Below are positions 28,205 to 56,789 of a DNA stretch of 64,000 bases, piece by piece. Origin of the DNA: Prochlorococcus sp. AG-355-A09. Lineage in GTDB: Bacteria; Cyanobacteriota; Cyanobacteriia; PCC-6307; Cyanobiaceae. Both the position numbers and the translations under genes were made by a program. The notes beneath the pieces were generated by a model. That model did no database searches and was not told the origin of the DNA. It was given only the letters and a program-made list of their open reading frames with translations. The stretch spans positions 1 to 64,000 of the forward strand of contig QCDG01000008.1 of assembly GCA_003280995.1 (NCBI GenBank). Direction: 5' to 3'. Position 1 is the stretch's first letter; each line of letters starts with the position of its first letter.

Positions 28205-28386
28205 AGGTTAAATAATAAATTTTTTCTACTCTTACTTGTATACATTTTCTTGTCAACGATTTAATTTTATTTGTTTACTAGCAGTTCTTAAATATGTATT
28301 AAATACAACTTTTTAAAATAGATAGTAATTAAGACTTATTCACATAGATTTAATTGAAGACTAATTTATATAAAAATACTTCAACT

Positions 28387-28530
28387 ATGAATAAAGAAGA
28401 AACATCAAAGCAAAAAACTATTTTAAATGTAGGCTATTGTGAAACGACCTCTGAATGGCTCAATAGAATCATTACTGAGCTTGCAGATGAAAATAAAAAT
28501 TTTGTAGATTTGTCAGTTATTTGTGCTTAA
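28387..28530 (+). CDS. 47-residue hypothetical protein
   Basis: MNKEETSKQKTILNVGYCET, then TSEWLNRIITELADENKNFV and a hydrophobic end LSVICA. Soluble. No family recognised. Confidence 0.45.
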   Translation: MNKEETSKQKTILNVGYCETTSEWLNRIITELADENKNFVDLSVICA

Positions 28531-28611
28531 TTTTTTTGAAAATATAGTTTATTTTGATTTATTTTCAGTAAGTTTTTAAGTATGAGAGAAATTTAAAAGA
28601 TATATTGTGAT

Positions 28612-29079
28612 GTGAATCCTAAGAAAAAAAACAAAGAAATAATTAAACAATTCAATTTGTCTCCTCATCCTGAGGGTGGATGGTTTAGAGAGATAGTAAG
28701 GAGTGAGAATTCTCTAATAAGGGAAGATGGCCAAAGTAGAAACTTTATTACGGGAATTTATTATCTTTTAGAGAAAGATGCAAAAAGTGCTTGGCACAGA
28801 GTAAAAAATGCTGATGAAATTTGGATTTATTTAAGGGGCGATCCTCTGAATTTATGGTGCCTAGATAATGATAATAAGTTAATAAGAAATATAATTTTAG
28901 ATTCCAATAATCCAGTAGAAATGATTCCATCTGGATATTGGCAAGCTGCAAAAAGTACAGGCGAATTTACTTTGGTGAGTTGTTGTGTTGGCCCAGGCTT
29001 TGATTTTAAGGATTTTGAATTACTCAGAAATACAAATCATACTTCTAGATTGGATAAAGCAATTAATGATCTTATTTGA
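28612..29079 (+). CDS. Cupin superfamily DUF985 protein
   Basis: 155 residues, GTG start. Conserved SPHPEGGWFREIVRSEN at the N-terminus (about 16-32), then the cupin strands TGIYYLLEKDAKSAWHRVKN (about 48-67) and DEIWIYLRGDPLNLWCL. The end has TLVSCCVGPGFDFKDFEL (about 123-140), typical of DUF985/Cupin_5. Members bind small ligands or sugars; the substrate is unknown. The size and motif order are normal. Confidence 0.85.
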   Translation: MNPKKKNKEIIKQFNLSPHPEGGWFREIVRSENSLIREDGQSRNFITGIYYLLEKDAKSAWHRVKNADEIWIYLRGDPLNLWCLDNDNKLIRNIILDSNNPVEMIPSGYWQAAKSTGEFTLVSCCVGPGFDFKDFELLRNTNHTSRLDKAINDLI

Positions 29080-29149
29080 GATATTTTTTTGTTTATATTT
29101 TTGAAATTATCCTCTACATTTATAGGGCTACTTAATCAATGTATTTGGG

Positions 29150-29527
29150 ATGAATCAAGATTCTGTCAAAACAATTGGTATAAATGATGAACCAAGAAAA
29201 GATTCACATTTAGTCTATGTAAATCAGGCTGATGGATTAAAAGGCGTCCTTAATAGGGATTTTGATGAATGGTCTAATTTTGATAGTTGGGAAAGTATTT
29301 CTGTGCAGCAATGGATTTTCTCAAGGGCTTTGGAGGTTTTCAGAGGTATGAAAATTGATATTAAATGCGATTGTTGTGAACATAATAATTTAATCCCAAA
29401 TGATTTTGAGAGCATTAGAAAAGAAAAATGCTTTGGTAAAAAAAGTGCTTACATGATTAAAAAAGTTGTAGATGAAATTGTATTGGCTAAGGCAAGAAGA
29501 GAAAGTGATGGAACATACTCTGCGTAA
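29150..29527 (+). CDS. Hypothetical protein with a Cys-cluster
   Basis: 125 residues. The N-terminus is MNQDSVKTIGINDEPRKDSH. The middle contains CDCCEHNNLI, a possible metal-binding cluster. The C-terminal SAYMIKKVVDEIVLAKARRE is helical and basic. No family recognised. Confidence 0.6.
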   Translation: MNQDSVKTIGINDEPRKDSHLVYVNQADGLKGVLNRDFDEWSNFDSWESISVQQWIFSRALEVFRGMKIDIKCDCCEHNNLIPNDFESIRKEKCFGKKSAYMIKKVVDEIVLAKARRESDGTYSA

Positions 29528-29563
29528 GATTTATAAATATCTATGGAGTGAAAAATCTTTTAC

Positions 29564-29752
29564 TTACCAGTGAAAATTATCAGAAGAACCAATCGTTAAA
29601 TTTTTAGTAGACATCTTATGGAACTTAAAGTGTACCGAATCACTGAACTCCTTTTCATCTGAGTAATTCACAAGATCCACTGGGTCGATGTTTTCATCGA
29701 ACCATGCATCATATTCAATATGGTTTGGTTCAGCAAAATAACTCATATCCAA
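29564..29752 (-). CDS. 62-residue acidic hypothetical protein
   Basis: MDMSYFAEPNHIEYDAWFDE, then NIDPVDLVNYSDEKEFSDSV and a C-terminal part rich in Lys/Ser. It is soluble and has no recognised family. The reading frame lies cleanly between its neighbours. Confidence 0.5.
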   Translation of the reverse strand: MDMSYFAEPNHIEYDAWFDENIDPVDLVNYSDEKEFSDSVHFKFHKMSTKNLTIGSSDNFHW

Positions 29753-29886
29753 TTAATAGCTTCCAAAAAACGAATAAACGGTACATGCGCTACCAAATTA
29801 AAATTCTTAATTTTTAAATAATCCATATTTTTAACTTGTTCATCAATATTAGTTGCTAAAAAGATAGGAGAAATAACTTTAAATTC

Positions 29887-30240
29887 ATGTCTCTCGATAC
29901 AACCATGGTTTCTATCCATCCCCACTTCACAATCAAGGATGGGAAGATGGACCAGTGCATAGCTCTTTTAGAAGAAATTTTGGTACTGACAAAAGCTAAT
30001 GAACCTGACTGCCTTTTTTTTAATATCACTACATGCGGGTCAGATAAGGCTTATGTAAGAGAGGCATATAAAGATGGTGCCGCTGCTTTATTTCATCTCA
30101 AAAATATGGGACATATGATTCCCAAGCTTTTTGAAGTTTCAGATATAACTGTGCAGGTCCAAGGCCCCGCTAAGGAGATTGAACCCTTGAAGGAAATACT
30201 CCCAGACGCTGATTTCTATGAAGCAATATCTGGATTCTGA
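29887..30240 (+). CDS. ABM-domain-like (dimeric alpha/beta barrel) protein
   Basis: 117 residues; a second in-frame Met (VSIHPHFTIKDGK) could be the start. The pattern HPHFTIKDGKMDQCIALLEE, then TKANEPDCLFFNITTCGSDKAYVREAYKDGAAALFHL cut by helices, matches the antibiotic-biosynthesis monooxygenase (ABM) fold (ferredoxin-like, dimeric barrel). Such proteins act as small monooxygenases or ligand binders. It opens a run of three similar-sized small proteins and is followed by a terminator. Confidence 0.75.
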   Translation: MSLDTTMVSIHPHFTIKDGKMDQCIALLEEILVLTKANEPDCLFFNITTCGSDKAYVREAYKDGAAALFHLKNMGHMIPKLFEVSDITVQVQGPAKEIEPLKEILPDADFYEAISGF

Positions 30241-30254
30241 TGTAGATTGTTTTT

Positions 30255-30268
30255 ATTGACAGTCGATC
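30255..30268 (+). repeat. Repeated 3'-UTR element, copy 1 (ATTGACAGTCGATC)
   Basis: 14 bp that follow the stop at 30240 by 14 bp and precede the GGGGC...GCCCC terminator. Two more copies occur at 30721 and, on the minus strand, 37601-37614. All three lie just after a stop codon, in the direction of transcription. Confidence 0.6.
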
Positions 30269-30272
30269 GCTT

Positions 30273-30294
30273 GGGGCTTTTAGCCCCTTTTTTA
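30273..30294 (+). terminator. Rho-independent terminator
   Basis: Stem GGGGCT / AGCCCC, loop TTT, then a T-run. It ends the 29887 gene. Confidence 0.85.
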
Positions 30295-30370
30295 TTTAGG
30301 AATTCAAAATAAATTAATCTTCCCTTTACTTATATCAAGTAACTTTATTATCAGCACAAATATTATTTTT

Positions 30371-30718
30371 ATGGCATCAACTTTTTATATTGTTCATCAT
30401 GAATTTAAGGCAGGAAAAGCTGAAAAATGGTGGGAAACAGCTTATGCGGCAATGTCACCAGGTGGTGGATGGGATGATGCGGTAGCGGCTAATAAAGAAA
30501 AAGGATTTTTTAATCATTCTGCAAATGCCGTAACTAAAACTGGTCCTGTATATTGTTTTTGGGAAGTAAAAGAGGGTATTTCTGCTGAAGATTTTCAGGA
30601 GTTTATAGATGGACCCTCTGGTCCTGGGTTCGGACAAGATGCTCTGATGAATATCTGTAAACCAATTGATACATCATTAATGAATGGACAAACACCTTAT
30701 CCACCAGTTTTTTCTTGA
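30371..30718 (+). CDS. Hypothetical small protein, alpha/beta-barrel-like
   Basis: 115 residues. MASTFYIVHHEFKAGKAEKW, then WETAYAAMSPGGGWDDAVAA, FFNHSANAV and GPVYCFWEVKEGISAEDF. Its layout of short beta strands and one central helix is compatible with the dimeric alpha/beta-barrel superfamily. No enzyme named. It is followed by the TTGACAGTCGAT element 3 bp after its stop. Confidence 0.65.
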   Translation: MASTFYIVHHEFKAGKAEKWWETAYAAMSPGGGWDDAVAANKEKGFFNHSANAVTKTGPVYCFWEVKEGISAEDFQEFIDGPSGPGFGQDALMNICKPIDTSLMNGQTPYPPVFS

Positions 30719-30720
30719 TT

Positions 30721-30753
30721 ATTGACAGTCGATTTAAAATAAATAGCAATTAG
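30721..30753 (+). repeat. Repeated 3'-UTR element, copy 2
   Basis: ATTGACAGTCGAT is followed by TTAAAATAAATAGC and AATTAGC, then a run of T. The same stretch of about 33 bp, with a few changes, appears at 37582-37614 on the minus strand. It lies between the 30371 stop and the start of the DUF3764 gene at 30763, so it could be a weak terminator or a leader. Confidence 0.5.
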
Positions 30754-30762
30754 CTTTTTTTT

Positions 30763-31047
30763 ATGACTATTGAAACTACTGTTTTCACGTTTAAACTTTC
30801 AAATACATTTGAGGAGTGGGTAAAAATGTTTGATAGTCCAGAGATAGATGAATTTCATAAAACGGTAGGACTTACTCCTCTATATCGTGGCAAAAGTTTA
30901 ATTGATCCAAAAGAAGTTATTGTTATTCATCAAGCTGAAGAAGGTGTGGCTAAGCATGTTTTTTCAGATCCTGAAACCATTAAGAATATAGAATCTGGAG
31001 GACATATTTATAGCACAACGAAAATCACAAGTTGGGTTTCTGAGTAG
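30763..31047 (+). CDS. DUF3764 family protein
   Basis: 94 residues. MTIETTVFTFKLSNTFEEWV, then MFDSPEIDEFHKTVGLTPLY and IVIHQAEEGVAKHVFSDPE fits the DUF3764 pattern (small alpha/beta barrel, picocyanobacteria). Function unknown. Third of a set of three related-size proteins. Confidence 0.7.
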   Translation: MTIETTVFTFKLSNTFEEWVKMFDSPEIDEFHKTVGLTPLYRGKSLIDPKEVIVIHQAEEGVAKHVFSDPETIKNIESGGHIYSTTKITSWVSE

Positions 31048-31169
31048 TCGAAATACTAACTATTTAAATCCATACAAATAATTCTAAACACGATTTCCAT
31101 ATAAGATCTTTAAAACAAAATTAGGGTATAGAAGAGTTTAAGTATAAGAGTATTAACTAATTAATTCGA

Positions 31170-31289
31170 TTAGATTATTAATAAGAATCTGAGTGCTAGA
31201 GGTAACCATAGACATAGAAGAAGCATTAGTAAAAGAGTAATAGCATGGATATTTGGAATGTAATGCTCTTTTAAAATTTGTGTTTTCAT
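31170..31289 (-). CDS. 39-residue membrane microprotein
   Basis: MKTQILKEHYIPNIHAITLL, then LMLLLCLWLPLALRFLLII. One long hydrophobic segment. It lies 3 bp after the stop of the 31293 microprotein, in the same orientation. Unknown function. Confidence 0.4.
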   Translation of the reverse strand: MKTQILKEHYIPNIHAITLLLMLLLCLWLPLALRFLLII

Positions 31290-31292
31290 AAT

Positions 31293-31382
31293 TTATCTCG
31301 CCTTCTTAAGTTTGATTTCTCTTCTGATAAGCAACGCTATTACCACAACACACATGTTCATTAGAAATACGTCTAATGGCAT
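31293..31382 (-). CDS. 29-residue membrane microprotein
   Basis: MPLDVFLMNMCVVVIALLIR followed by a basic end (REIKLKKAR). One hydrophobic helix with a positive tail. It precedes the 39-residue ORF by 3 bp. The remainder of 31048-31522 shows nothing else supportable. Confidence 0.35.
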   Translation of the reverse strand: MPLDVFLMNMCVVVIALLIRREIKLKKAR

Positions 31383-31522
31383 TTTTTTAAAAGTCTCTAT
31401 TTAATTAATAGCAAGATTATTGATCTACGAATCAAGAAATCATTACTAATATTTATTGTCTTAATAAAACGAATTTAAAAATTAAATTTATGCTTAAATA
31501 TCTCAGAATTTTTAACTATTAA

Positions 31523-31825
31523 ATGGCTTATTCAGAAACAAGAATAGTAATAGGTGGCCTAGCTCATGTACCTGTTCTTATCTTTATAGCCAATTTTATA
31601 AAAGGTAAGTTTGGAATTAAAACTGAAGAGACAAAAGATAATGTATTTAAAGAAGAGCCTGTTAAAATTATTGAGTTAAAAAATTCCGTAGTTAAAGAAG
31701 GAAAAGCAGAAACTTTAAAGGTACTTTCAAATAAGCTGGATAATATTGAACAGAAGGCTGATGAGGTTTATGAAAAGGTAAAGAAGAAAAAAAAGGATAA
31801 GAAGAAGAAAAAAAAGAATAACTAA
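31523..31825 (+). CDS. Hypothetical protein with N-terminal hydrophobic segment and Lys-rich tail
   Basis: 100 residues. The N-terminal hydrophobic segment (VIGGLAHVPVLIFIANFIKG) could be a membrane anchor. A coiled-coil-prone middle follows (about 45-85), then a C-terminus of almost pure Lys (VKKKKKDKKKKKKNN). The tail may bind nucleic acid or lipid head-groups. No family recognised. Confidence 0.55.
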   Translation: MAYSETRIVIGGLAHVPVLIFIANFIKGKFGIKTEETKDNVFKEEPVKIIELKNSVVKEGKAETLKVLSNKLDNIEQKADEVYEKVKKKKKDKKKKKKNN

Positions 31826-32007
31826 ATTGAAATCCTATCAAGCATCAATATATCTTGAGCTTGGATTGTGTCTTTCTTATCTTCATCTTCGGGGTCTTTA
31901 TAAGATTCAATTTCAGCTTGAATTTTTCTCTTGTAAACTCCTTTGATATAGTCCATTTCTCTTTTGTCTTTGTCCAGAATTGAGAATGGTGATCTTTTTA
32001 AGTTCAT
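31822..32007 (-). CDS. 61-residue hypothetical protein
   Basis: MNLKRSPFSILDKDKREMDY, then IKGVYKRKIQAEIESYKDPE and an acidic segment before AQDILMLDRISI. Soluble and charged. It is convergent with the 31523 gene with a 4-bp overlap. Together with 32035 it may form a short minus-strand unit. Confidence 0.5.
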   Translation of the reverse strand: MNLKRSPFSILDKDKREMDYIKGVYKRKIQAEIESYKDPEDEDKKDTIQAQDILMLDRISI

Positions 32008-32034
32008 AACTTTCTCCTAAAAAAATAAATTTAA

Positions 32035-32172
32035 TCAGCTCCAGTTTTTATCAGATTCAACAAAGCTATCCAATGTTTGCTGGTTCCTGATTTCTTCTTC
32101 AAGAAGTTCTTCTTCTGATCTTTCTTCAATCTCAGATTTATAATCTTCTTTTAGTGTGGATTTCGTAGACAT
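32035..32172 (-). CDS. 45-residue acidic hypothetical protein
   Basis: MSTKSTLKEDYKSEIEERSE followed by EELLEEEIRNQQTLDSFVES: a single charged helix rich in Glu. It lies 27 bp upstream of the 31822 gene. No family recognised. Confidence 0.45.
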   Translation of the reverse strand: MSTKSTLKEDYKSEIEERSEEELLEEEIRNQQTLDSFVESDKNWS

Positions 32173-32314
32173 TTGCTCATGACGACTACATCTATGTTCT
32201 AACTAGTTAGAGAGGCCATTCGACTAATAAATATGTACGGTTTGAGGTACTCCCATATACGGATAAAGGATCAACAATTTAATTTAAATATGGATAAAAT
32301 GTATGAAATTTTGA

Positions 32315-32401
32315 TTAATTTTTTCGTTTAAGAATCACCAATAAAGGTAGACCAATCAGCATTAAACTCCCATCTATTAATAAAAAAGTATTCAGGTTCA
32401 T
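32315..32401 (-). CDS. 28-residue membrane microprotein, coupled
   Basis: MNLNTFLLIDGSLMLIGLPL, then LVILKRKN: one transmembrane helix. Its ATG overlaps the stop of the 32398 gene (ATGA), which suggests translational coupling and supports a real gene. Confidence 0.4.
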   Translation of the reverse strand: MNLNTFLLIDGSLMLIGLPLLVILKRKN

Positions 32402-32601
32402 TTATCCATCCCTTCAGAGTTATCCCAATTGAGAGAAATTCCTTTTTTAATTGGTTGTTTTTTCATATCATCCATCTCTTTTCTGATTTTGTTGTAGTAG
32501 TCCAACTCCTTTGGATCATCAGAACCAAGACCATAATTCATGGTTGCTGCAATATATATTTTGTGCATCCGGTATGACGATAGTGGCATTACTAAAGGCA
32601 A
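32398..32601 (-). CDS. 67-residue hypothetical protein
   Basis: MPLVMPLSSYRMHKIYIAAT, then MNYGLGSDDPKELDYYNKIR and a Lys-rich segment. The internal Met at MNYGLGSDDP could also be the start. No family recognised. It is the last host gene before the left end of the integrated element. Confidence 0.5.
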   Translation of the reverse strand: MPLVMPLSSYRMHKIYIAATMNYGLGSDDPKELDYYNKIRKEMDDMKKQPIKKGISLNWDNSEGMDK

Positions 32602-32677
32602 ACTATTTTAAATATATTTGAATTATAGTTAAAATGCTGATCTAAGAGATCTCAGTTATATTAATCAATTCCCCAAG

Positions 32678-32723
32678 TGCCCTCGTCGGGACTTGAACCC
32701 GAGACCTCTCCCTTACCAAGGGA
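32678..32723 (-). repeat. attL: 46-bp 3' remnant of tRNA-Thr
   Basis: Identical to the 3' part of the tRNA-Thr gene at 56708-56753 (anticodon stem to 3' end, minus strand). The 5' half of the tRNA is absent; the sequence turns into AATAAATAC instead of GTGCTCTACC. It therefore marks the far end of an integration into the 3' part of the tRNA. Confidence 0.92.
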
Positions 32724-32789
32724 AATAAATACTTTGTAAAAGCCAGTATTTGCAGTAGTTTAAAGAGTAAAATATGTTAAATATTACTT

Positions 32790-32815
32790 AATTAGTGCAA
32801 AGATTAGTGCATAAT
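32790..32815 (+). promoter_or_regulatory. Tandem ATTAGTGCA motif, left end copy
   Basis: Two copies of ATTAGTGCA separated by 3 bp (12-bp period), 20 bp upstream of the ATG of the HTH protein at 32836. A nearly identical 26-bp block (24/26 positions) occurs at 56591-56616, just upstream of the recombinase. Candidate arm-type recombinase site or common operator. Confidence 0.65.
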
Positions 32816-32835
32816 AAGGTTAATTAGTTTGATTT

Positions 32836-33177
32836 ATGCATAAAAGAGCAACTAAACAAGAAACTGAATTAAGAGTTGCACATGCTGCTGAATTAGTTGC
32901 TGAAGGACAAGCCTATTCATCTATTACTTCCCTTGTTGCCGCAAAATATGGAATCTCAAGAAGAAGAGCTAGGCAGATCACTTCTAATGCTTATCTTTTG
33001 CTGAAAGATGATATTGAGGAAGGCGACTTGAATCGCCCTGAAATGACAGCAAAATTAGTATGCACTTTAGAAACTGCAATTTTTAGAGCAATGCAAGAAA
33101 AACAATATTCAGCAGTTGCAAGTAATGCAAAAGTTCTTATGAAATTAATCGGTCTAGAAACCAAAATAAAAAGTTAG
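32836..33177 (+). CDS. HTH protein, possibly terminase-small-subunit-like
   Basis: 113 residues. An N-terminal helical domain (ELRVAHAAELVAEGQAYSSI) is followed by a helix-turn-helix-like segment (VAAKYGISRRRARQITSNAY, about 37-56). The C-terminal helical region (AKLVCTLETAIFRAMQEKQY) could oligomerise. The layout resembles small DNA-binding terminase subunits or regulators, but that is inference; a simple transcription regulator is equally possible. It is the only gene between attL and the tRNA-Pro relic. A tandem ATTAGTGCA motif lies directly upstream. Confidence 0.7.
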   Translation: MHKRATKQETELRVAHAAELVAEGQAYSSITSLVAAKYGISRRRARQITSNAYLLLKDDIEEGDLNRPEMTAKLVCTLETAIFRAMQEKQYSAVASNAKVLMKLIGLETKIKS

Positions 33178-33180
33178 AGC

Positions 33181-33218
33181 GAGTGTTTTGGAGCACTAGG
33201 TCGCAGGTTCTAATTCTT
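33181..33218 (+). repeat. Degenerate tRNA-Pro-like 3' half (left relic)
   Basis: It shares a 21-bp block (33190-33210, GGAGCACTAGGTCGC then AGGTTC) with 36915-36935. The surrounding sequence also resembles a tRNA anticodon stem and T-arm, but a base is missing from the loop and the T-stem is decayed. It starts 3 bp after the stop of the 32836 gene. Interpreted as an old attachment-site scar. Confidence 0.6.
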
Positions 33219-33336
33219 TAGCCCCTACTCTTAAAAACCAATTCATACTAGCGATTTACCCAGACTCGCTTTTTTATTGGGCAATCTTAAGGTAGCAATT
33301 GTCGTCAAATTGCCCTCAGAAAAATTCCAATAATTT

Positions 33337-34875
33337 TTAGAAACCTTTACCGCTTGGTGTAATTTCACTGGTAAAGAATCCATTTTTAGATTGAAATTCC
33401 AATATTAATTTTTCAACCTTTTGAGTGGCGACTGAAGAAGACAATTCGAAAAATTCTTTCCCGGCTCCTTTACTTATTTGAAATCTTTTTAGACGACTGT
33501 GAATAAAATTTTCTGCTCTATGTCTATTCGTAACATGCCATACATTTAAAAAAAGCCATCCTTCAGCACTAAAAGTCTTGTAATCCTCTCTCCTTTTTTG
33601 GATTTTCTTTGTTTTACCTATCTTCACTCTGTCATCCATTCCTTTACCATCTCTATAAACATCATTATTTACTGCAATATAGATATATCCAGAGTTTTCT
33701 TTTTCATTTTCAATTCTTGTCTGATTAGCTTTATTTACAGCTTTGTACCAAGTGTCAATAGATTTACCCTGAATTGTTTCGGCAATAACTCGCGGTATAA
33801 ATAAATATGATTCAAGAATGTCATGATTATAAATATCTTTTACTTTCTCAAGAACAAAAGAATAGTTATTTTTATAAGTTTCTTCTCCAATCTTGAGTAT
33901 TAGTTTTTCTTTATTAGTTATATAAAATAATAGCTCTCCTAAGAAAAACTTTAGTCCCTCGAAAGTATATATTTTTTCAACCGGTGTATTGTATAAATGA
34001 TTCTTTGAACCTTTTTCGAAATCTTCTGTATAAGCAATAATAAGATAAACGAATAAACACCATTCTCTTATTTCTTGGGAATTTTCATGTAGAAGCATTT
34101 GATATATTCTTGGAAGTTCTCTTAATTGATCCTTAATAATGAGAGGGAAAAGTTTTTTAGTATTTTCATCTAAATAAGAAAAATTTGGATCTTTTAAATC
34201 GTGAAGCAATAAGGTCGAAGCAAGACGTTCGATAATAATATTTACTGGATTATTCAAAATATCAACAACAACCGGATGCGGAAAATCTAGATTTTTTTCA
34301 GGATCATCTAATTCCGAGTGAAATTTATAAAAGAATTGGAAGCGCTCTGCATAATCTTGATTTATGTATTTCTGCCTTTTAGACAATTCGCTAGCGTATC
34401 TTGACTTTATTTTTGAGATATTTTTGTTGCCCTCTTTCTTAATAAGTGAAAACAAACTTTTAACTCTTTTATTCTCAAATAAAAAATTCCATTCTTGATA
34501 GGAAATCTCATCAAATTTATAGAGATTCGAATAAATTCTTTTAAAGTTATCGCAATATTCCCCCATAGTTGTTTGCTCAACTATTCTGTTATAAGTTTTG
34601 ATGGTTTTCGGTGAAATCGAATTAGACCTTTTCTCGCAGTTCTCGTCTCTTTCTTTGAGTTCTTTTGTTTTTCTAGCTGGATGCCTAAAGTACTTTTGAC
34701 CGTTTTTCTTAGAAACAAAAATTGCTGGACTATTACAAGAACCACAAACTAATCGATATCTTAAATTTTCCTCATCTCCAGAGAGACTGAATTCATCAGC
34801 CTTAATAATCCTATCTAAATCTTCTGCGAGATAAATTCTTTCTTTTCCATGTAAAAAAATTACTGCTTCTTTCAT
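33337..34875 (-). CDS. CoiA-like/T5orf172 (GIY-YIG-like) nuclease-family protein
   Basis: 512 residues. The N-terminal segment RLVCGSCNSPAIFVSKKNGQ, then KYFRHPARK (about 40-68), resembles the zinc/His part of CoiA-type competence proteins. The middle is a large helical region of no known family. The C-terminal domain (about 395-500) has GYIYIAVNN...RVKIGKTKKIQKRREDY and later HRAENFIHSRLKRF..GAGKEFFEL. This is the T5orf172/Mug113 pattern, a GIY-YIG-like nuclease fold. It is the last gene of a three-gene minus-strand cassette (13 bp after the HNH gene). A role in nucleic-acid cleavage or defence is inference. Confidence 0.75.
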   Translation of the reverse strand: MKEAVIFLHGKERIYLAEDLDRIIKADEFSLSGDEENLRYRLVCGSCNSPAIFVSKKNGQKYFRHPARKTKELKERDENCEKRSNSISPKTIKTYNRIVEQTTMGEYCDNFKRIYSNLYKFDEISYQEWNFLFENKRVKSLFSLIKKEGNKNISKIKSRYASELSKRQKYINQDYAERFQFFYKFHSELDDPEKNLDFPHPVVVDILNNPVNIIIERLASTLLLHDLKDPNFSYLDENTKKLFPLIIKDQLRELPRIYQMLLHENSQEIREWCLFVYLIIAYTEDFEKGSKNHLYNTPVEKIYTFEGLKFFLGELLFYITNKEKLILKIGEETYKNNYSFVLEKVKDIYNHDILESYLFIPRVIAETIQGKSIDTWYKAVNKANQTRIENEKENSGYIYIAVNNDVYRDGKGMDDRVKIGKTKKIQKRREDYKTFSAEGWLFLNVWHVTNRHRAENFIHSRLKRFQISKGAGKEFFELSSSVATQKVEKLILEFQSKNGFFTSEITPSGKGF

Positions 34876-34888
34876 TACGTTAAAATTC

Positions 34889-35827
34889 CTACTCTCTTAA
34901 GAGAGACCGATGATACTTCATATAGAAATCTTGCTTTGTAGAAAAAGGCTTCACGATTTTGCATTCTTTTATTCCCCATTTATCTAAAGCAAATTTTGCC
35001 TTTGCACTTTTCCAAATTAAAGTGCCGTCCTTTTTAAAGGATATCCAGTGTCTATCAAATAGCTTATCAATATGAGGAGATAACAAAAGTCCATTAGATC
35101 CATCTAATCTTTCTTGATTATTAGATTCTTTCCAAGATTTTATATGACTTGCGATCAAGAATTCCTTCTTATCTAGGCCAGTTACCCTACAAATTGGTTC
35201 AATAATTTCAACTTCTCTTCTGAATTGACCATGACCAAGTCTTGATTTTATTAGTGACTCTCTTTCTGTGATACTTTCAATATTTTCGCAAAACCTTATA
35301 TCCTCAACAAAAGTTCTGGTTCTCTCAAGCTCTTCCTCCAAAAAATTAATATCGAATTCGATATCTGCATTTTGTTCTTTTATGAAAGAAAAAATTAATT
35401 CCCCAAGAGATTCATCAATATCTGCTAGATAACAATTCTCAGAACCATTTCCTAATTTATTCAAAGGTGAATTCTTCTTAGGCAAAAAACCTTTAATCTG
35501 ATCAAAAAAATCTTTTGGTTTAAATGAATTTTTTAAAGGCTGCCAGTTTACTTTTACCATCCATCCTTGCTTATTCCAATTAACGCCCTCTTTACCAAAT
35601 TCTTCTGGTTTAGGAGAAGTTATAGCTGAAGACTCAACAATACCTATGTAGTTTATTTTCATACGAGCATAACTAAAAACAATATCGCCACTTAAACATT
35701 TTTCTAAATTCTCGTAAGTTTGATTTTTAGATCCATCATTATTTTTCTTTGGTGACCAGATATAACCCCCAGAAGTTTCTTGTTTAAACGTTTTTTTGTG
35801 ATTAACCCACCAATATTTATTGTTCAT
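34889..35827 (-). CDS. EVE/PUA-like domain plus HNH endonuclease, probable modification-dependent restriction enzyme
   Basis: 312 residues. The N-terminal domain (about 1-145), with KYWWVNHKKTFKQE...GGYIWSPKK and GDIVFSYARMKINYIGIVES, looks like an EVE/PUA-fold module, which reads modified bases in flipped-out form. The C-terminal HNH domain (about 190-275) has CRVTGLDKKEFLIASHIKSW, then NGLLLSPHIDKLFDRHWISF, with the expected His/Asn/His positions. EVE-HNH fusions are known type IV restriction enzymes that cut modified DNA. The EVE assignment is by eye and not certain. Middle gene of the cassette. Confidence 0.75.
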   Translation of the reverse strand: MNNKYWWVNHKKTFKQETSGGYIWSPKKNNDGSKNQTYENLEKCLSGDIVFSYARMKINYIGIVESSAITSPKPEEFGKEGVNWNKQGWMVKVNWQPLKNSFKPKDFFDQIKGFLPKKNSPLNKLGNGSENCYLADIDESLGELIFSFIKEQNADIEFDINFLEEELERTRTFVEDIRFCENIESITERESLIKSRLGHGQFRREVEIIEPICRVTGLDKKEFLIASHIKSWKESNNQERLDGSNGLLLSPHIDKLFDRHWISFKKDGTLIWKSAKAKFALDKWGIKECKIVKPFSTKQDFYMKYHRSLLRE

Positions 35828-35840
35828 TTAATTTTTTGCT

Positions 35841-36773
35841 CTAAAGCTTAATTTTTTTTATCTCTGGTCTAAGAGCTGCTTCCAATTGATTCATTGCATC
35901 AATCATTTTTTCCTGCAATTGAGGCCATTCTTCTTCAGTCGATCTGTAACCTCCTTCTAAATTAATTATTATTCTTGAAGCTCTTCTATTATCTAATCTT
36001 TGCCAATCAATAGGAAAACTAACTTGATTATTAATCATCTCTTGGTGAAGCTTTAATTGCTCAAAAATTGATTTATTTTCATCTTGAGAATCTTCACCAC
36101 GATCAATATATAATTCTGCTCCACAAATATTTTTTTTGCCAACATAATTGAAATTCAAACCTCTTGTTCCAGAAGAGACTCCTATCCATGTAGCCATACT
36201 AGGAGTTATGTGATTATGGGATTTTGCAAGTGGATTTGAAACTAATTGTCCCCACCATCTTTTCCTTATAAAATGCCTTTCAGCTTTTTCTTGTTTAGCT
36301 TTACCTGAAACTTTAGCTTCAATTGAAGGCCCAACAATCAAAGTCAATAGAGGGGCTGGGTTTGAATTTCCAATCCTTACAGCTTCAACCTTTACGAGAT
36401 AAAAATCAGCATTACTTGATTCATTCAACCATGCCATCGCATTTATATGCTCTTGCCTAGGTTCCTTTACTATCCAAATAGCTCCACTTGCTTCTCTGGA
36501 AGTTAAATATGTAATTACTTTTCCTAAGTGGTCATGATCACTTTTTTCTAGTTGGTTTTCGATTATTAAAGTCTGTCCATCACTATTTTCTGCTACCAAA
36601 TCAATACTAAAACTGCCAGCAGCTTGTTCTCTTTCCGCAGATGCCAGTTCTAAATCAAGAGTGTCATTTAAGATGTCAAGATTTTCTTGTAGCCACTGAG
36701 TGAAGTCATATGCCTCATGTCTCCAAACTTCTCTAAGTGGAACTCTTTGAAGCTTATCAATTAAATTGGTCAT
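35841..36773 (-). CDS. DUF4268-like PD-(D/E)XK nuclease-fold protein
   Basis: 310 residues. The N-terminal half (about 1-150) carries SFSIDLVAENSDGQTLIIEN, then QLEKSDHDHLGKVITYL, with an Asp...Glu-X-Gln/Lys arrangement of the PD-(D/E)XK fold. The C-terminal half (about 165-300) has RKRWWGQLVSNP, WIGVSSGTRGLNFNYV, DWQRLDNRRASRI and the end EAALRPEIKKI, typical of DUF4268 proteins. Members often accompany restriction systems. It is the first gene of the minus-strand cassette, 13 bp before the HNH gene. No catalytic test is possible from sequence alone. Confidence 0.78.
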   Translation of the reverse strand: MTNLIDKLQRVPLREVWRHEAYDFTQWLQENLDILNDTLDLELASAEREQAAGSFSIDLVAENSDGQTLIIENQLEKSDHDHLGKVITYLTSREASGAIWIVKEPRQEHINAMAWLNESSNADFYLVKVEAVRIGNSNPAPLLTLIVGPSIEAKVSGKAKQEKAERHFIRKRWWGQLVSNPLAKSHNHITPSMATWIGVSSGTRGLNFNYVGKKNICGAELYIDRGEDSQDENKSIFEQLKLHQEMINNQVSFPIDWQRLDNRRASRIIINLEGGYRSTEEEWPQLQEKMIDAMNQLEAALRPEIKKIKL

Positions 36774-36905
36774 AATTAAAATCCACTTATTTAAAGTGCC
36801 GTCAAATTGCCGTCAAATACATCATAGTTTGTCCCGGCAAATCAAGTAAATCCATGAAAAAGGTAAGTTATAGCCTTAAGACATAGTGCGATACTAGGTT
36901 TGTTA

Positions 36906-36943
36906 AGTGCTTTGGGAGCACTAGGTCGCAGGTTCGAATCCTT
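36906..36943 (+). repeat. tRNA-Pro(UGG)-like 3' half (right relic)
   Basis: AGTGC-TTTGGGA-GCACT makes a perfect anticodon stem-loop with anticodon TGG, followed by AGGTCGCAGGTTCGAATCCT, a variable loop plus T-arm. No 5' half and no acceptor stem follow. A decayed copy lies at 33181-33218. Read as an attachment remnant of another element that used tRNA-Pro. Confidence 0.7.
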
Positions 36944-36958
36944 GAGTTCTTTTATTAA

Positions 36959-37570
36959 CTAATCCTTAGCGTATGTGGCATTATAAATTTCAACAAGATT
37001 CCTTCCCTTGTGATACCAATATTTACTACCTCTAATTCTGCTATCCGTATTCATTAATTTTTGAGTTAAGCCACTTAAATAATAATCCTCACCTTGATAC
37101 TCAACTTTCCTCTGATTTTTTACAGTGCAAGTTATGTTTTGATCCAGTTCGTAAGTAAATACATCTCCAATCTCTAAACCCATCTCAAAATAGTTAACGA
37201 CTGGTAATCTATCCTTCTTAAATTTTTCAACCGATGCTTTAGCTTCAATATCGACACTATCAGCTTCTTTTCTCACTGAAGGAGTCATATCTTCTATTTC
37301 GAGTAATTTTAAAAAAGCTATAGCTTGCTCAGGATCGATTTTAAAAAATTCTCTCTTTATATTCACTCTGTCTTTTTTAAACCCAAGATGAAAAGCTTTT
37401 TCAGTTTGATCTACATCTTTAACTTTTGCAGCATATTCACATTCAAAAGGTAATGGAACGCCTGTTGTATATAAATCTGAAAGTCTTAAAGATACATCTC
37501 TAGTGGTTTTCCCAATCTTTACTAAATCTGGCATCGCTGGATTAGTTAAGACATATACTGTTCCATCCAT
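36959..37570 (-). CDS. T5orf172/GIY-YIG-like protein with C-terminal RAMA/DUF4357-like module
   Basis: 203 residues. The N-terminal domain (about 1-95) has GTVYVLTNPAMPDLVKIGKT, then TTGVPLPFECEYAAKVKD and REFFKIDPEQAIAFL, the T5orf172 pattern with the GIY-YIG-like fold. The C-terminal region (about 125-200) has GLEIGDVFTYELDQNITCTV, EYQGEDYYLSGLTQKL and GSKYWYHKGRNLVEIY, resembling small RAMA/DUF4357 modules often attached to restriction or methyltransferase proteins. Widely found in mobile elements; the molecular role is not established. The TTGACAGTCGAT element lies about 31 bp upstream. Confidence 0.8.
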   Translation of the reverse strand: MDGTVYVLTNPAMPDLVKIGKTTRDVSLRLSDLYTTGVPLPFECEYAAKVKDVDQTEKAFHLGFKKDRVNIKREFFKIDPEQAIAFLKLLEIEDMTPSVRKEADSVDIEAKASVEKFKKDRLPVVNYFEMGLEIGDVFTYELDQNITCTVKNQRKVEYQGEDYYLSGLTQKLMNTDSRIRGSKYWYHKGRNLVEIYNATYAKD

Positions 37571-37581
37571 TTTTAAAGTGG

Positions 37582-37614
37582 CTAATTGCCCCCTATTTTA
37601 GATCGACTGTCAAT
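37582..37614 (-). repeat. Repeated 3'-UTR element, copy 3 (inside the element)
   Basis: On the minus strand ATTGACAGTCGATC (37614 to 37601) is followed by TAAAATAGGGGGCAATTAGC, closely matching copy 2 at 30721. It lies 10 bp after the stop of the 37625 gene and 31 bp before the start at 37570. It joins the host flank and the mobile element. Confidence 0.6.
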
Positions 37615-37624
37615 CAATTTAAGT

Positions 37625-37807
37625 TCACATTAAATCGTTCAAAATATAATTCCAGTCAACAACTCCTCCATCTTTTTTTGTTTCTTGATCCATCCTTCTA
37701 AGCTCTTTTCTGTACTTTTGCCTTATAGGAGAATAGTTCTTATCCAAGCTTTCTTCTGGATGTCTTAGGTAGTCCAAAATGTTTTTTTTAGTCCACAAGT
37801 TTTTCAT
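37625..37807 (-). CDS. 60-residue hypothetical protein
   Basis: MKNLWTKKNILDYLRHPEES, then LDKNYSPIRQKYRKELRRMD and a C-terminus VVDWNYILNDLM. Soluble, basic and helical. It overlaps the upstream exported-protein gene by 4 bp (ATGA), so the genes are probably coupled. No family recognised. Confidence 0.55.
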   Translation of the reverse strand: MKNLWTKKNILDYLRHPEESLDKNYSPIRQKYRKELRRMDQETKKDGGVVDWNYILNDLM

Positions 37808-38298
37808 TTTTTACCCTTTTTATAAATTGTTTCTATAGTTGATATCCACCAATATCCAAAGCTATTAGTTAATCTTTTTTGTATTTCTTTAGAGGGCTCT
37901 TTAAGATCACGTGCAGCAAATAATTTAGGTACTGCTTTTTCAGTTGCTTCTTTGCAAAGAGCAGTTCTTTCTGCAACCTCATTTACAATAATTGGTTTTA
38001 TATTTTTTTCTTCAGTAAACATAATTTGAGGTTTGATTTTATTACCTCTCATAATTCCAACAAATAACTTGTCTGATATATCCATCGCTTCATCTGGGTG
38101 TTTGCCTTGATTAACAGCAAATACATAAGTACAAGCAGCCATAGAAATGAATCTTGCAGCACAACTTTCTGCTCCATATTTCTGACATTCCAAACTAAAT
38201 TCATTTTCTAATTTTTCAAATTGCTCTGGTTTAGTTGGTACTGCAAAAGCCGTTATAGGTAATGAGAAAAATAGTGATGTGAGTAGTAATAGTTTCAT
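37804..38298 (-). CDS. Exported hypothetical protein (164 residues)
   Basis: A clear signal peptide (MKLLLLTSLFFSLPITAFA, cleavage after AFA). The mature part has Cys residues (SLECQKYGAESCAARF and MAACTYVFAV), consistent with periplasmic disulfides. Mostly helical. No family recognised. Second of three consecutive exported-protein genes that abut end to end (0-bp gap) and point away from DISARM. Confidence 0.65.
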   Translation of the reverse strand: MKLLLLTSLFFSLPITAFAVPTKPEQFEKLENEFSLECQKYGAESCAARFISMAACTYVFAVNQGKHPDEAMDISDKLFVGIMRGNKIKPQIMFTEEKNIKPIIVNEVAERTALCKEATEKAVPKLFAARDLKEPSKEIQKRLTNSFGYWWISTIETIYKKGKK

Positions 38299-38826
38299 TT
38301 AATCCCACCCATAATAAATAAATCTTTCACATTTTTTTGAAGGTATAAAAAAACCTTCAGCAGCTCCTAATATTTTATTCATCTCTGTTGTTCTACCTCC
38401 GAATCTTCCATCTGTTTTTGAGTCATTTGTAGATAACGAGTAATAGTATCCGACTCCAAATCTAGGAAACATAATTTTATCCCTCCCCTTCTTTTGATAT
38501 TCCTTTGGAGTTCCTCTCCCCGATTGTGTTCCAATAATATTGACTACTGGACCGCTAGCTATTGAAACTTGCTTTTCAGAAGAGTCTTTTTTTATTTTGG
38601 ATATATGAAAGTATTGTCCTCCATATCCATTACTTATTCCTGTTTCGAAATTCAGAACTGGCTTATCTTTATAATTAATTGTTCCTCTACCAACAGAATT
38701 ATATTCTCCATTAATAACCTCAATAGTTACATCTGGATAATATTCACTAAAAAAACTACAGGTATCCGCTGCATTAGCTGAAGGAATTAAACCTAATAAA
38801 AAAGATGTAAGTAAAAACCGTTTCAT
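38299..38826 (-). CDS. Exported hypothetical protein (175 residues)
   Basis: Signal peptide MKRFLLTSFLLGLIPSANAA (cleavage after ANA). The mature part is rich in Gly/Tyr and Asp/Lys (TCSFFSEYYPDVTIEVINGE; NYKDKPVLNFETG) with beta-prone character. Two Cys (DTCSFF and KKCERFIYY) may pair. No family recognised. It abuts the downstream exported-protein gene. Confidence 0.62.
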   Translation of the reverse strand: MKRFLLTSFLLGLIPSANAADTCSFFSEYYPDVTIEVINGEYNSVGRGTINYKDKPVLNFETGISNGYGGQYFHISKIKKDSSEKQVSIASGPVVNIIGTQSGRGTPKEYQKKGRDKIMFPRFGVGYYYSLSTNDSKTDGRFGGRTTEMNKILGAAEGFFIPSKKCERFIYYGWD

Positions 38827-39234
38827 TTATATTTCGTCCAGACTTTTTGTTAGCCAACCATTTTCAGTACAGATTCCATATCCGTAATCTATATAACCAC
38901 CACCACGACGAAGTACAGGTTTTGGGTCTGCTTTTTTTCGAGCTTGTATATGATCTTCTGAACACCAATACCTACCACCAGCTTTCATTATTCCTTTCCT
39001 AATAATTTTTGCAGGAACATCAGTTTTTACAAAGCAAGCACCATCTATTCTTATTTTACAAATGTCATCATTTACTCTATCGGCAGAGTTAGTGAAATAG
39101 TAGAAAAACCCATCATCACCTATCGTGCCTGAGTAAGAAGAAGGAGGTCTTACATGAACATAATAAATACGATTTTTTTCTGCCAATACAGGACTTGAAA
39201 ATAATAGAAGTCCTAGGAGTAACAAGCGTTTCAT
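38827..39234 (-). CDS. Exported hypothetical protein (135 residues)
   Basis: The start is set at the Met (39234) that opens a good signal peptide, MKRLLLLGLLLFSSPVLA; 32 residues further upstream in frame lack support. The mature part has Tyr/Gly-rich stretches (YYVHVRPPSSYSGTIG; KPVLRRGGGYIDYGYG) and Cys residues (DICKIRIDGACF, YWCSED). No family recognised. First of three exported-protein genes, divergent from drmD. Confidence 0.6.
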   Translation of the reverse strand: MKRLLLLGLLLFSSPVLAEKNRIYYVHVRPPSSYSGTIGDDGFFYYFTNSADRVNDDICKIRIDGACFVKTDVPAKIIRKGIMKAGGRYWCSEDHIQARKKADPKPVLRRGGGYIDYGYGICTENGWLTKSLDEI

Positions 39235-39461
39235 TAAATTCTTTCTTGCATTATTTAAGGAACATCTAAATTGAATGTGCCAATTTTGAAGTCGGTTACT
39301 AATATTGCCAAATGAAATAATCTTTTGCAAGAAGTATTTTTTTTATTTTTTGTATTGATTTAAATTTCTAAGAACTTCAAATGGTGCTTTAAAAATGATA
39401 AATCTCTATTATTAAATTAATCCTCTATGTAAGGTTATTTTATTCATTTTATGTACCATTA
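39235..39461. promoter_or_regulatory. Divergent intergenic promoter region (exported genes / DISARM)
   Basis: 227 bp of AT-rich sequence between divergent operons. No strong palindrome or obvious repeat was found. The DISARM promoter must lie here or overlap the exported-protein gene. An out-of-frame ATG at 39451 followed by a stop codon lies close upstream of the drmD ATG. Confidence 0.45.
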
Positions 39462-42400
39462 ATGACCTCTCATAAAACGCCAGAATTAAAAGTTGGAAGC
39501 GTTGTCGAATGTCGATCTCATAGGCATTTGGTTGAAAAAGTAGAACTAGCCTCTTCAGAAATTGGAGATACTATTGTCAAGCTAGCTTGCTTAGATGATG
39601 ATGCGAATGGAAAAATAACTGAGGTTTTCTGGGAAAGGGAAGTTGATGCTCGTGTTATCGGAGATAGTACTTGGGATACTATTGGTAATAGAGGGTTTGA
39701 TGATCCTAAGATTTTTTCAAGCTACTTAAATACCTTGAAATGGAATTGTGTAACTGCAACTGATCCAAATCTTTTTCAAGCCCCACTTCGCGCCGGTATA
39801 GATGTAAAACCATATCAATTAGAACCATTAAGAAAAGCTCTTAGAATGCCCAGAGTGAGTCTTTTTATAGCAGATGATGTTGGTTTAGGAAAAACCATTG
39901 AAGCTGGATTAATTTTAAGAGAACTTCTTTTAAGACAAAAATTACAGAGAATTATAGTAATTGCTCCTCCATCTGTTGTCCTTCAATGGAAAGGTGAAAT
40001 GGAGTCTCGTTTTGGCCTGGAATTTGAAGTTATGGACAGAAAATATATTTCTAGAATGAGACGTGAAAGAGGGTGGGGAATAAATCCATGGTCAACTCAT
40101 ACAAGATTTATTCTTAGTCAGTCTCTAGTTCGTAATGAAGAATATGCTAGTTCTTTACGAGATTGGTTAGGAGATGGTTTAAAAACTATGCTTATTCTTG
40201 ATGAGGCACATAATGCTGCACCAGCAAGCTCTTCAAAATATGCTATTGATTCAAAACTTACTAGATCAATAAGAGATTTAGCTTGGCGATTTGAACATAA
40301 ACTTTTTTTGTCGGCTACCCCTCATAATGGTCATAGTAATAGTTTCTCAGCACTATTAGAAATACTGGACCCTTCCAGATTTTGTAGAGGAGTTCCTGTA
40401 CGTAATAAAACTGATTTAGATCCCATTTTAGTAAGAAGATTAAAAGAAGATTTGAGAAAAATTGGAGTTGATTTGCCAAAAAGGATTGTTGTCCCAATAG
40501 TAATTGAAGGATTACAAAAAAATTCACCTGAACTCGTATTGGCTTCTCTTCTAAAAAACTATAAAGAAAAAAGAGAAGAGCGTCTTAAGAAAGCAACTGT
40601 AAAACAGAAAGCTGCTGAATTATTAGTCGTTGGTAATTTGCAGAAACGCTTATTGAGTTCTGTTGAAGCATTTCATAGAACCTTGAATGTTCATATTAAT
40701 ACTTTAAATAAAAAAGATATAGAAGAAGAAATAAGAATTGCTAAAAACCTTGATCAATTAGACCTATTAAGAGGAGGAATAAATGGCGATGATGATCGTG
40801 CAGATTCAGATGAATTACAAGTTGAAGAAGAGGCTGCTCATCAACATCAAATTGCTATGAAAACAACTGGACAAGCAATATGCAAAGAAGAATGGGAGCT
40901 TTTAGAACAAATGAATAATATAAGTTCTAATGCCCGATATAAAAATGATGAGAGAATAAGTTATTTAAAAAAATGGATTAAAAATAATCTCTGCCCTTCT
41001 TTGGGTGAGAAAGGAGCAAAATGGAATAACGAACGATTATTAATTTTTACAGAATATGCTGCCACAAAACATTGGTTAGAAAGTCAAATAAGGTCGTTGA
41101 TAGCTGATAGTGATCTTGAAGAAAAAAGAATTGCAACATTTCATGGTGGAATTGGAGATGAAAAAAGAGAATTTCTTAAGAGTAGTTTTAATAGTAATCC
41201 GGTTGATAATCCACTAAGAATTCTCATAGCTACTGATGCAGCTCGAGAAGGTGTTAACTTACAAAACCATTGTAGATATCTTTTTCATTTTGATGTTCCA
41301 TGGAATCCAAGTCGTATGGAGCAAAGGAATGGTCGTATTGATAGAACTTTGCAGCGTGCAAAAGAAGTTTTTTGTCATTATTTTGTTATTGCAGATAGAG
41401 AAGAAGATAAAGTACTTGATGTTCTTGTAAAAAAAACGGAAGAGATTAGAAATAGCCTTGGAACTCTCCCTCCCGTAGTAGTTAATCGTTTAAATGAGCT
41501 TTTAAAAAAAGGGATAAATCCTACTTCTATTGGGGAAACAATTTCTCAAATTCAAGGGGTTGATGAAGAGGAAGCTATTAAACGTAGCCAAGAATTGATA
41601 AAAGTAGAGTTAGAAGATAATAGTCGTGAAAGAGAGGAGGCTCTGAAGGAGCAAATATCAAGACTTGAAAAAGCATTGATTAAATCAGAAAAATGGTTAA
41701 ATTTTAGAAGTGACTTTTTTAGAGATGCTTTAAACACTAGTCTCAAAATAAATGCTTTAGAAGTTAATAGTCCTCCACAAATACGGTTAAAAGATTTTTC
41801 AAGAAATTATGAAGATATTGAAAGAGCAGAGTGGATTTTCCCTGATGCAAATAGTCTCCCTGGAGGCGAGCAGTCTTGGGGAGATGTTCTTGATTATTTA
41901 AGACCTTCACGCAAACCTGGTCAAAAAATCTGGCAATGGAGAAAAGAAACTTGTCCACAACCAGTGGTGTTTAAAGATCCTGAAACACTTGATTCAGGAA
42001 CAGTGCATTTACATTTGGAGCATCCATTAGTTCAAAGGTTACTAAGTCGATTTTTAGTACGTGGATTTCAAACAAATAATTTGAGTAAAGCAGCGGTACT
42101 TGGGACTCGTGATGATACTGCAAAACTTATTTTATTAGCAAGACTTTCCCTTTATGGTCATGGAGCATCTCGTCTACATGATGAAATGATTGAGCTTGTT
42201 GCCGAATGGGATCCTCAGGACCCTAATAGAAGATTGAGAGTACTTAACTCAACTAAGTCTGGATTTGCCATAGAAGATTTAACGACTAGCTTAAAAGATA
42301 ATCTTCCTGAGGTGGATCTTAAAATACAAAATAGACTTAAAGAATTTGTTATTGGAGATGTAAAAAATTTAAAAGACAGATTGGATCAAGTTGCAGAAGA

Positions 42401-46930: not shown

Positions 46931-46934
46931 ATTG

Positions 46935-50456: not shown

Positions 50457-50458
50457 AA

Positions 50459-52333: not shown

Positions 52334-52356
52334 TGTTTTAAAAGTAATTAAATAAA

Positions 52357-56590: not shown

Positions 56591-56616
56591 AATTAGTGCA
56601 AATATTAGTGCAGAAT
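56591..56616 (-). promoter_or_regulatory. Tandem ATTAGTGCA motif, right end copy
   Basis: 26-bp block with 24/26 identity to 32790-32815. It lies 11 bp upstream of the integrase start codon. With the left copy upstream of 32836, both outermost genes of the element share this block. Confidence 0.65.
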
Positions 56617-56643: not shown

Positions 56644-56707
56644 ATCTGGTTATAAGTCAATCTTACCTTATTTCTTATAAACTCTTTTGCAGCAATGCTT
56701 TTGGCCA

Positions 56708-56779
<72 letters not shown>

Positions 56780-56789
56780 AATTTTAAAG

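Follow-up and report, generated by a model that had tools for sequence, protein, structure and literature searches.

The window analysed here is a 64,000-nucleotide stretch of Prochlorococcus sp. AG-355-A09 (contig QCDG01000008.1, positions 1 to 64,000 of the forward strand; contig C8 of a 1.52 Mb genome that comprises 28 contigs and is 91.6% complete). It contains a block of three genes, referred to below as the cassette, that is bracketed by two remnants of a tRNA-Pro gene and lies inside a larger element bounded by tRNA-Thr sequence. The cassette spans 3.72 kb, from the left core at about 33183 to the right core at 36907. Genomic islands are described as key reservoirs of flexible Prochlorococcus genes, which raises the question of how single genes or pairs of genes enter and leave them.

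All three cassette genes are encoded on the minus strand. The gene at 33337-34875 specifies a 512-amino-acid (aa) protein with a C-terminal T5orf172/MUG113 (GIY-YIG) domain (Pfam, 1.2e-10); no match to it was found outside the window in 42 fetched loci, the sole set searched. The gene at 34889-35827 encodes an EVE-HNH-type modification-dependent endonuclease related to VcaM4I (phmmer, 9.4e-72 to PDB 6yex), with an alignment over residues 4-308 that is nearly full length. VcaM4I is an EVE-HNH endonuclease acting on modified-cytosine DNA, for which residues H224, D250 and D254 are named in the available part of the source (PMC7897488). These active-site residues are conserved, as judged by eye, in the product of the cassette gene, which has both the EVE and the HNH part; Pfam returned HNH_2 alone, and no full-length relative of the gene was found in 200 genomes. 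The gene at 35841-36773 encodes a candidate defence protein, DUF4268/PDC-S11 (PADLOC, 3.9e-136; Pfam, 2.8e-23). An initial annotation, made from the letters of the window, had called all three genes nuclease-like, which holds for the GIY-YIG and HNH proteins; for DUF4268/PDC-S11 a nuclease character is only suggested. The cargo looks like anti-phage defence.

At the right junction of the cassette (36907-36942, plus strand), 36/36 positions are identical to nucleotides (nt) 29-64 of tRNA-Pro(UGG) as encoded by the host genome (G000:C6:101577-101650). The left junction (33175-33228, plus strand) is a decayed copy of nt 21-75, 83.6% identical over 55 columns, in which one base has been lost from the anticodon loop. 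The host gene aligns with both relics, which had been recognised as tRNA-Pro-like in the initial annotation; the left relic is longer than described there, since its match covers nt 21-75. The 21-bp block GGAGCACTAGGTCGCAGGTTC shared by the relics was searched for in the source genome with up to three mismatches and was found at four places: both relics and the tRNA-Pro gene contain it unchanged, and a copy with two mismatches lies about 2.1 kb downstream of that gene. It therefore does not occur at many unrelated positions. The reversed GGAGCACTAGGTCGCAGGTTC control gave no match in the same genome.

The word CGTCAAATTGCC, reported initially as a repeat lying inward of each relic, has just two occurrences in the window, starting at 33303 and 36800 (0.003 expected from composition). 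The 14-mer that encloses it starts 73 bp past nt 75 of the left relic and 109 bp before the right core: on the left as the arm word GTCGTCAAATTGCC (33301-33314, plus strand), which differs from the class word by one substitution, and on the right within the arm words GCCGTCAAATTGCCGTCAAAT (36798-36818, plus strand). The left end also carries, at 33250-33276 (plus strand), a copy of the hairpin and T-run of the tRNA-Pro 3' flank; it resembles, by eye and among the matches listed, the hairpin that follows tRNA-Pro or its relics in other genomes. No integrase was found between 33175 and 36942. The arrangement of two tRNA-Pro relics and CGTCAAATTGCC repeats around three nuclease-like genes was thus confirmed as a whole.

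The surrounding element (32678-56780) has the parts of a tycheposon, a kind of tRNA-integrating Prochlorococcus element with a tyrosine recombinase that was reportedly described by Hackl et al. in 2023 (Cell). Its attachment gene is an intact tRNA-Thr(GGT) gene (56707-56780, minus strand; ARAGORN), adjoined by the gene of a divergent tyrosine recombinase (55230-56579, minus strand) to which PF00589 gives no match. Its distal outer end is a tRNA-Thr(GGT) 3' half (nt 28-73; 32678-32723, minus strand) that agrees with the intact gene at 46/46 positions. The location of the block inside a tRNA-Thr element, as initially annotated, was upheld by these three features. Two arm-site-like ATTAGTGCA words lie at the distal end (32791-32811) and two adjoin the tRNA-Thr gene (starting at 56592 and 56604; 56592-56612), in both cases with the strand unassigned; a fifth copy is found at 56520, within the integrase gene. 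This recombinase belongs to the tRNA-Thr element and not to the cassette, and it is unlikely to be the mover of the cassette because its end word is ATTAGTGCA. The cassette itself is flanked by partial tRNA (tRNA-Pro nt 21-75 and nt 29-64), as a tycheposon is, and has no deep-branching recombinase of its own.

A genome with the same tRNA-Thr element and different cargo (G029; integrase 97% identical) provides the corresponding empty site. There, the counterparts of window positions 31087-33221 (92%) and 36907-39356 (96%) adjoin at one tRNA-Pro-like site, which comprises nt 21-64 of tRNA-Pro and is fused at its start to the stop codon of a 113-aa gene. The same gene in the window (p113, helix-turn-helix-like; 32836-33177, plus strand) ends in a TAG codon that forms nt 21-23 of the tRNA-Pro-like site. 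Sequence past nt 64 at the right junction of the window is that of the empty site, with the same edge; the end of the G029 site at nt 64 explains the point at which the right relic stops. A second pair of genomes was found at a homologous site, G217 being empty and G113 carrying two cassettes (3.07 kb); both flanks align, with an overlap of 37 bp around nt 29-64. The block had been ascribed to integration at tRNA-Pro, and the relics are indeed tRNA-Pro; as the G029 site indicates, the tRNA-Pro gene need not have been the first target.

The relic is not a singular one: tRNA-Pro 3' halves are a genus-wide repeat family that marks tandem cassettes. With one mismatch allowed, the 21-bp block was detected in 31/37 genomes belonging to the genus, often in tandem arrays, and in none of 23 other genomes of the class; the reversed pattern gave no match in these 60 genomes. 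The 42 fetched loci (41 with matches) yielded 172 tRNA-Pro matches, namely 137 3' halves, eight 5' halves, 26 full or nearly full copies and one other. The 3'-half relics start at nt 25-30 in 108/137 cases and end at nt 74/75 in 120/137, and five of the eight 5' halves end at nt 42; these edges point to an exchange most likely within the anticodon stem-loop, nt 29-42. Among the matches listed, the 3' flank of the tRNA, with its hairpin terminator, has often been copied along with the relic and lies directly behind it. Two of the 5' halves (L035:13094-13135 and L035:15631-15672) lie upstream of the tRNA-Pro gene and near paralogous genes in locus L035; others occur in L040, L051, L052, L057, L072 and L075. 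The 5' halves and four integrases with the word GTACGCAA upstream of tRNA-Pro suggest elements that insert on the 5' side.

For comparison of end words, a cassette was taken to be any stretch bounded by two successive relics or tRNA-Pro genes of the same strand (n=120; matches to the 5' half were left out), and the zone from +40 to +110 after nt 75 was compared with the zone from -165 to -85 before nt 29. A word of at least 9 nt was shared between the two ends of the same cassette in 83/120 cases; non-cognate end pairs from different loci shared such a word in 8.3%, and in 1000 shuffles of the 120 cassettes the mean was 10.6 and the maximum 25. When kinship was reduced by taking one cassette from each of 85 blastn groups, the count was 60/85 (shuffles: mean 8.0, maximum 20). 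A first test, performed with the whole 170-bp ends and uncommon 8-mers, had given 82/120 (mean of the comparison 37.7, maximum 50.0). The end pair of the window cassette has 12 nt in common and ranks best or tied. Many words consist of a variable part followed by a constant CAAAT or CAAAA (GTGGTCAAAT, TGCGGACAAA, GTGGACAAAT, GCCAACAAAT, TTCCCTCAAAT, GTGCCCAAAA and GCCGTCAAAT); others, such as GGTAGCTA and TATGTCATA, are without it.

Copies of the window word (CGTCAAATTGCC-type) were examined in 11 genomes, and all 17 fell into one of two intervals, +71 to +82 on the 3' side of a relic and -106 to -109 on the 5' side of a core; the search had returned 22 matches, and those in G063, G073, G081 (two) and G082, each with one mismatch, were outside the examined set. 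GCCGTCAAATTGCCGTC, with one mismatch allowed, was found in 28/248 genomes, and its reversed control in none. The fixed distances and the empty G029 site bear out the initial view of a second, integrase-less unit with ends of its own. Of the three genes, for which a search between tRNA-Pro ends in other strains had been suggested, DUF4268 alone was recovered elsewhere at 74% identity or more. This gene was detected in 13/200 genomes, the source genome counted, and relatives at least 74% identical were present in four of the 200 besides the source genome: in G013 and G033 with the same right-end word as in the window and a relic, in G167 between relics and without that word, and in G081 with neither relic nor right-end word within 1.5 kb. 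The G013 cassette is 1.8 kb long and has the same right end and a different left word. In G033 the DUF4268 gene, with the same right-end words and a relic (L061:4286-5384), lies at the locus that matches window positions 28257-32308.

An integrase gene is present in eight of the 120 cassettes; the other 112, without a recognised integrase, have a median length of 2.0 kb. Open frames (stop to stop) for integrases of this kind end 40-173 bp on the 5' side of relics or tRNA-Pro cores, and their reading direction is away from these. For 18 integrases, the sequences were compared and the words were read by eye. Pairs at least 91.7% identical have the same word (GCCAACAAAT, GTGTGTGAT, GTACGCAA or ATTAGTGCA), one pair at 90% has words one or two letters apart (GCCGTCAAAT and TCCGTCAAAA), and pairs at 51-60.4% have different words, save one pair at 58% with GTGCAGTC in common. 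Close integrases thus carry close words. The window's word GCCGTCAAAT is the one beside the G017 integrase (L059:6336-7571), the element of which carries another word at its left end and has a right end resembling that of the window cassette. An integrase-alignment search of the source genome returned the tRNA-Thr integrase and a more distant recombinase only; no tRNA-Pro-type integrase was found there.

Six IMG/VR contigs contain the tRNA-Pro core. Two of them are viral contigs with a tycheposon-type integrase (L124, IMGVR_UViG_3300020421_000124; L126, IMGVR_UViG_3300025132_000709), in which the integrase is accompanied by a single core that has one and the same word to its left and right, an arrangement as expected of a phage attachment site (attP). 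Of the remaining contigs, three contain complete tRNA-Pro genes and the fourth breaks off within the core region. L126 also encodes a sigma factor, an exonuclease, a RusA-like protein and weakly primase/helicase-like proteins.

The 113-aa gene to which the empty site is fused is present in 76/249 genomes. Its relatives in named records (61 loci) are from Prochlorococcus in 59 cases and from Synechococcaceae cyanobacterium in two. The first 22 loci studied, top-scoring ones for the most part, include 17 in which the gene continues into tRNA-Pro sequence and 21 in which a tRNA-Thr, tRNA-Ala or tRNA-Gly relic, half or copy is located no more than about 0.9 kb away from it. In the wider named set (61 loci fetched, one of them cut off; a few partial protein matches, with ends extrapolated), the fused tRNA-Pro site was found in 28/60 loci and is followed by 26 different 20-mers; 22 of the other 32 loci have one common ending, CAAATTAGATAATT. 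The supposition that the 113-aa gene always carries a tRNA-Pro-like site was accordingly wrong. A pattern search with up to three mismatches recovered the fused site in 32/248 genomes; it missed the decayed copy of the window, which is not included in this count. Docking is therefore a property of one allele group. The fused site may be a selected docking site, or could equally be the old right end of a tRNA-Pro element. At one site of the 113-aa gene (L112), an integrase-bearing element lies between relics.

The 113-aa protein matches PHROG 34910, a family of unknown function (8.7e-8), and therefore has distant phage relatives. It gave no Pfam model over the cut-off, no PDB sequence match and no close IMG/VR relative, and its AlphaFold model (predicted local distance difference test, 72) gave no significant fold match; a role as a small terminase is not supported by any of these searches. 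The alignment of the protein was prepared from 10 of the available sequences, L105 being dropped (stop codon).

On this evidence, the block is probably a non-autonomous cassette that was mobilised in trans by the integrase of a tRNA-Pro tycheposon and that had a site in the tRNA-Thr element as its target; the initial interpretation is partly supported. The circular form of the cassette would consist, in this order, of the right end, the anticodon-arm core, the tRNA-Pro 3' half with its hairpin terminator, the left end and the cargo. A tycheposon-type tyrosine recombinase from another element would bind the repeated words at the cassette ends (GCCGTCAAAT, with starts at -109 and +73), which would serve as arm-type binding sites, and would recombine the core in the anticodon stem-loop of tRNA-Pro (nt 29-42) with an identical core in a target. 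In the present case the target would have been, instead of the tRNA-Pro gene, the tRNA-Pro-like site that the tRNA-Thr element already carried in fusion with the 113-aa gene. A wider scheme, which we regard as possible and put forward tentatively, is an integron-like double-stranded exchange with many orthogonal sets of integrases and words on one tRNA-Pro core, small integrase-less cassettes addressed by their words, and a docking site, fused to the 113-aa gene, that travels on tRNA-Thr, tRNA-Ala and tRNA-Gly elements and would allow the same cassettes to be loaded onto other mobile elements, here a defence island.

Among the rival explanations, the one that survives best is rather unlikely: the block would be a decayed autonomous tRNA-Pro tycheposon that lost its integrase by deletion after landing and was never mobile as a cassette, i.e., a remnant of the cis-mobilisable element (CIME) type. 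CIMEs are integrase-less elements that keep their attachment (att) sites and stack by site-specific recombination, and their formation followed by accretion is an established route (PMC5704250). The cassette likewise has two recognisable junctions, the left one decayed, and neither an integrase nor a transfer gene; at its right end it is similar to the integrase-bearing element of G017, and the start of its first gene falls roughly at the place expected for an integrase gene. A remnant of this kind is at odds with the rarity of integrases (8/120 cassettes) and the small size of the other 112 cassettes, whose matched words and edges agree with units that move in this form. The recurrence of DUF4268 beside the same right end, in the 1.8-kb cassette of G013, also speaks for a mobile unit, though the left word differs there.

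A mechanism without a site-specific recombinase, in which scattered tRNA-Pro repeats exchanged the block by homologous recombination or gene conversion, is disfavoured and appears quite improbable. In its favour, the repeats are numerous in the genus and identical over up to 36 bp; it predicts neither matched words at fixed distances (83/120 against about 11; 60/85 against 8), nor junction edges in the anticodon arm, nor the coupling of integrases and words. Chance similarity or an assembly artefact, for which only the draft state of the genome (28 contigs) could be adduced, is extremely improbable in view of the 36/36 match, the absence of the reversed pattern from 60 genomes and the colinearity of both flanks with G029 up to the junctions; on the counts in the source genome and in the 60 genomes, the idea that the 21-bp block recurs by chance or at many unrelated places was rejected.

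Several points weigh against mobilisation of the cassette in trans, the entire case for which is built on sequence comparison. No 9-nt word is shared in 37/120 cassettes, only 41/120 have no better match than their own right end, ties included, and the zones of the word test were chosen after an earlier look at the same cassettes. In the first test (direct orientation), the window's own pair had no shared word, its word having been excluded as too common, and a 22-mer of the right arm was absent from the IMG/VR search. The two ends carry different words in some cassettes, including the DUF4268 cassette of G013 and the integrase element of G017; ends are therefore sometimes exchanged. With two genomes compared, the change could be a gain or a loss, and G029 could have lost the cassette, so that insertion rather than excision is only the presumed course. 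The missing integrase is weak evidence because the source genome is 91.6% complete, and the integrase profile, built from the window's own integrase, could miss other kinds. Finally, decay of the left junction suggests that this copy is a fossil that is no longer mobile; since its left core is short by one base, excision from this copy is doubtful.

The tRNA-Thr element also carries, as cargo, an operon for the defence island system associated with restriction-modification (DISARM) at 39462-53178 with drmD, drmMI, drmA, drmB and drmC, all five recognised by PADLOC profiles. At the same place of the same element, G029 encodes a DrmD-like helicase, a type IIG restriction enzyme, and DruE-like and UvrD-like proteins. 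A T5orf172/PDC-S57 gene (36959-37570, minus strand; PDC-S57, 2.8e-71) encodes a second T5orf172 protein; it lies just outside the cassette, belongs to the tRNA-Thr element and has a 99% identical counterpart in G029, which is without the cassette. A recurring ATCGACTGTCAAT motif was observed near island gene starts (30254-30294, 30720-30765, 37566-37625 and L001:873-932) and is possibly a promoter or regulatory element. The cyanobacterial small RNA Yfr8 is also present.

Repeated tRNA-Pro ends and tycheposons are already known. Coleman et al. (2006, Science) reportedly found PRE1, a repeated tRNA-Pro 3' end, in many copies in Prochlorococcus islands and reported it as a repeat; the relics appear to be of the same kind, and here they are the junctions of cassettes with paired, cassette-specific words. 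Tycheposons are matched by the tRNA and tyrosine recombinase parts of the tRNA-Thr element, whereas the cassette, 3.7 kb long, lacks an integrase gene, and its tRNA-Pro ends lie within an element of the tRNA-Thr type. A size of 4-200 kb is given for tycheposons in the available part of PMC10872708, which also describes additive flexible islands of Methylopumilus with serial insertions marked by 20-bp tRNA-Lys repeats; repeated tRNA ends mark serial insertions in both cases, and end words or an empty site are not mentioned in that part. In an island of Prochlorococcus MIT9313, there are five partial tRNA-Met copies, with five copies of a 36-bp match, at a putative attachment site of cyanophage P-SS2 (PMC2784084, in part). 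Pseudo-tRNA copies mark an integration hot spot there as well; the tRNA is tRNA-Met, the region is tied by the authors to insertion sequence (IS) activity, and the part at hand does not mention paired end words. CIMEs, in the accessible part of PMC5704250, are described for tandems of integrative and conjugative (ICE) or integrative and mobilisable (IME) elements, in contrast to the many small units with varied end words and one core found here.

Serial tRNA islands, CIMEs and tycheposons being known, the new part, as far as the literature searches reach, consists of the paired words and the fused travelling site; no earlier description of these was found in searches that did not extend to the original tycheposon and PRE1 papers. 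If the end words address cassettes to integrases, the cassettes moved by an integrase should be predictable from sequence, and the travelling tRNA-Pro site, if real, would account for small cassettes reaching other mobile elements, including a DISARM-bearing defence element. Integrons add serial gene cassettes at one site by means of a tyrosine recombinase acting in trans, and the present cassettes would resemble them in both respects. The block, compared without an attC model, has ends made of a tRNA-Pro anticodon core, in the place where integron cassettes have attC, and short repeats, and it contains no integrase; here the integrase travels with some of the cassettes, and the words vary from cassette to cassette.

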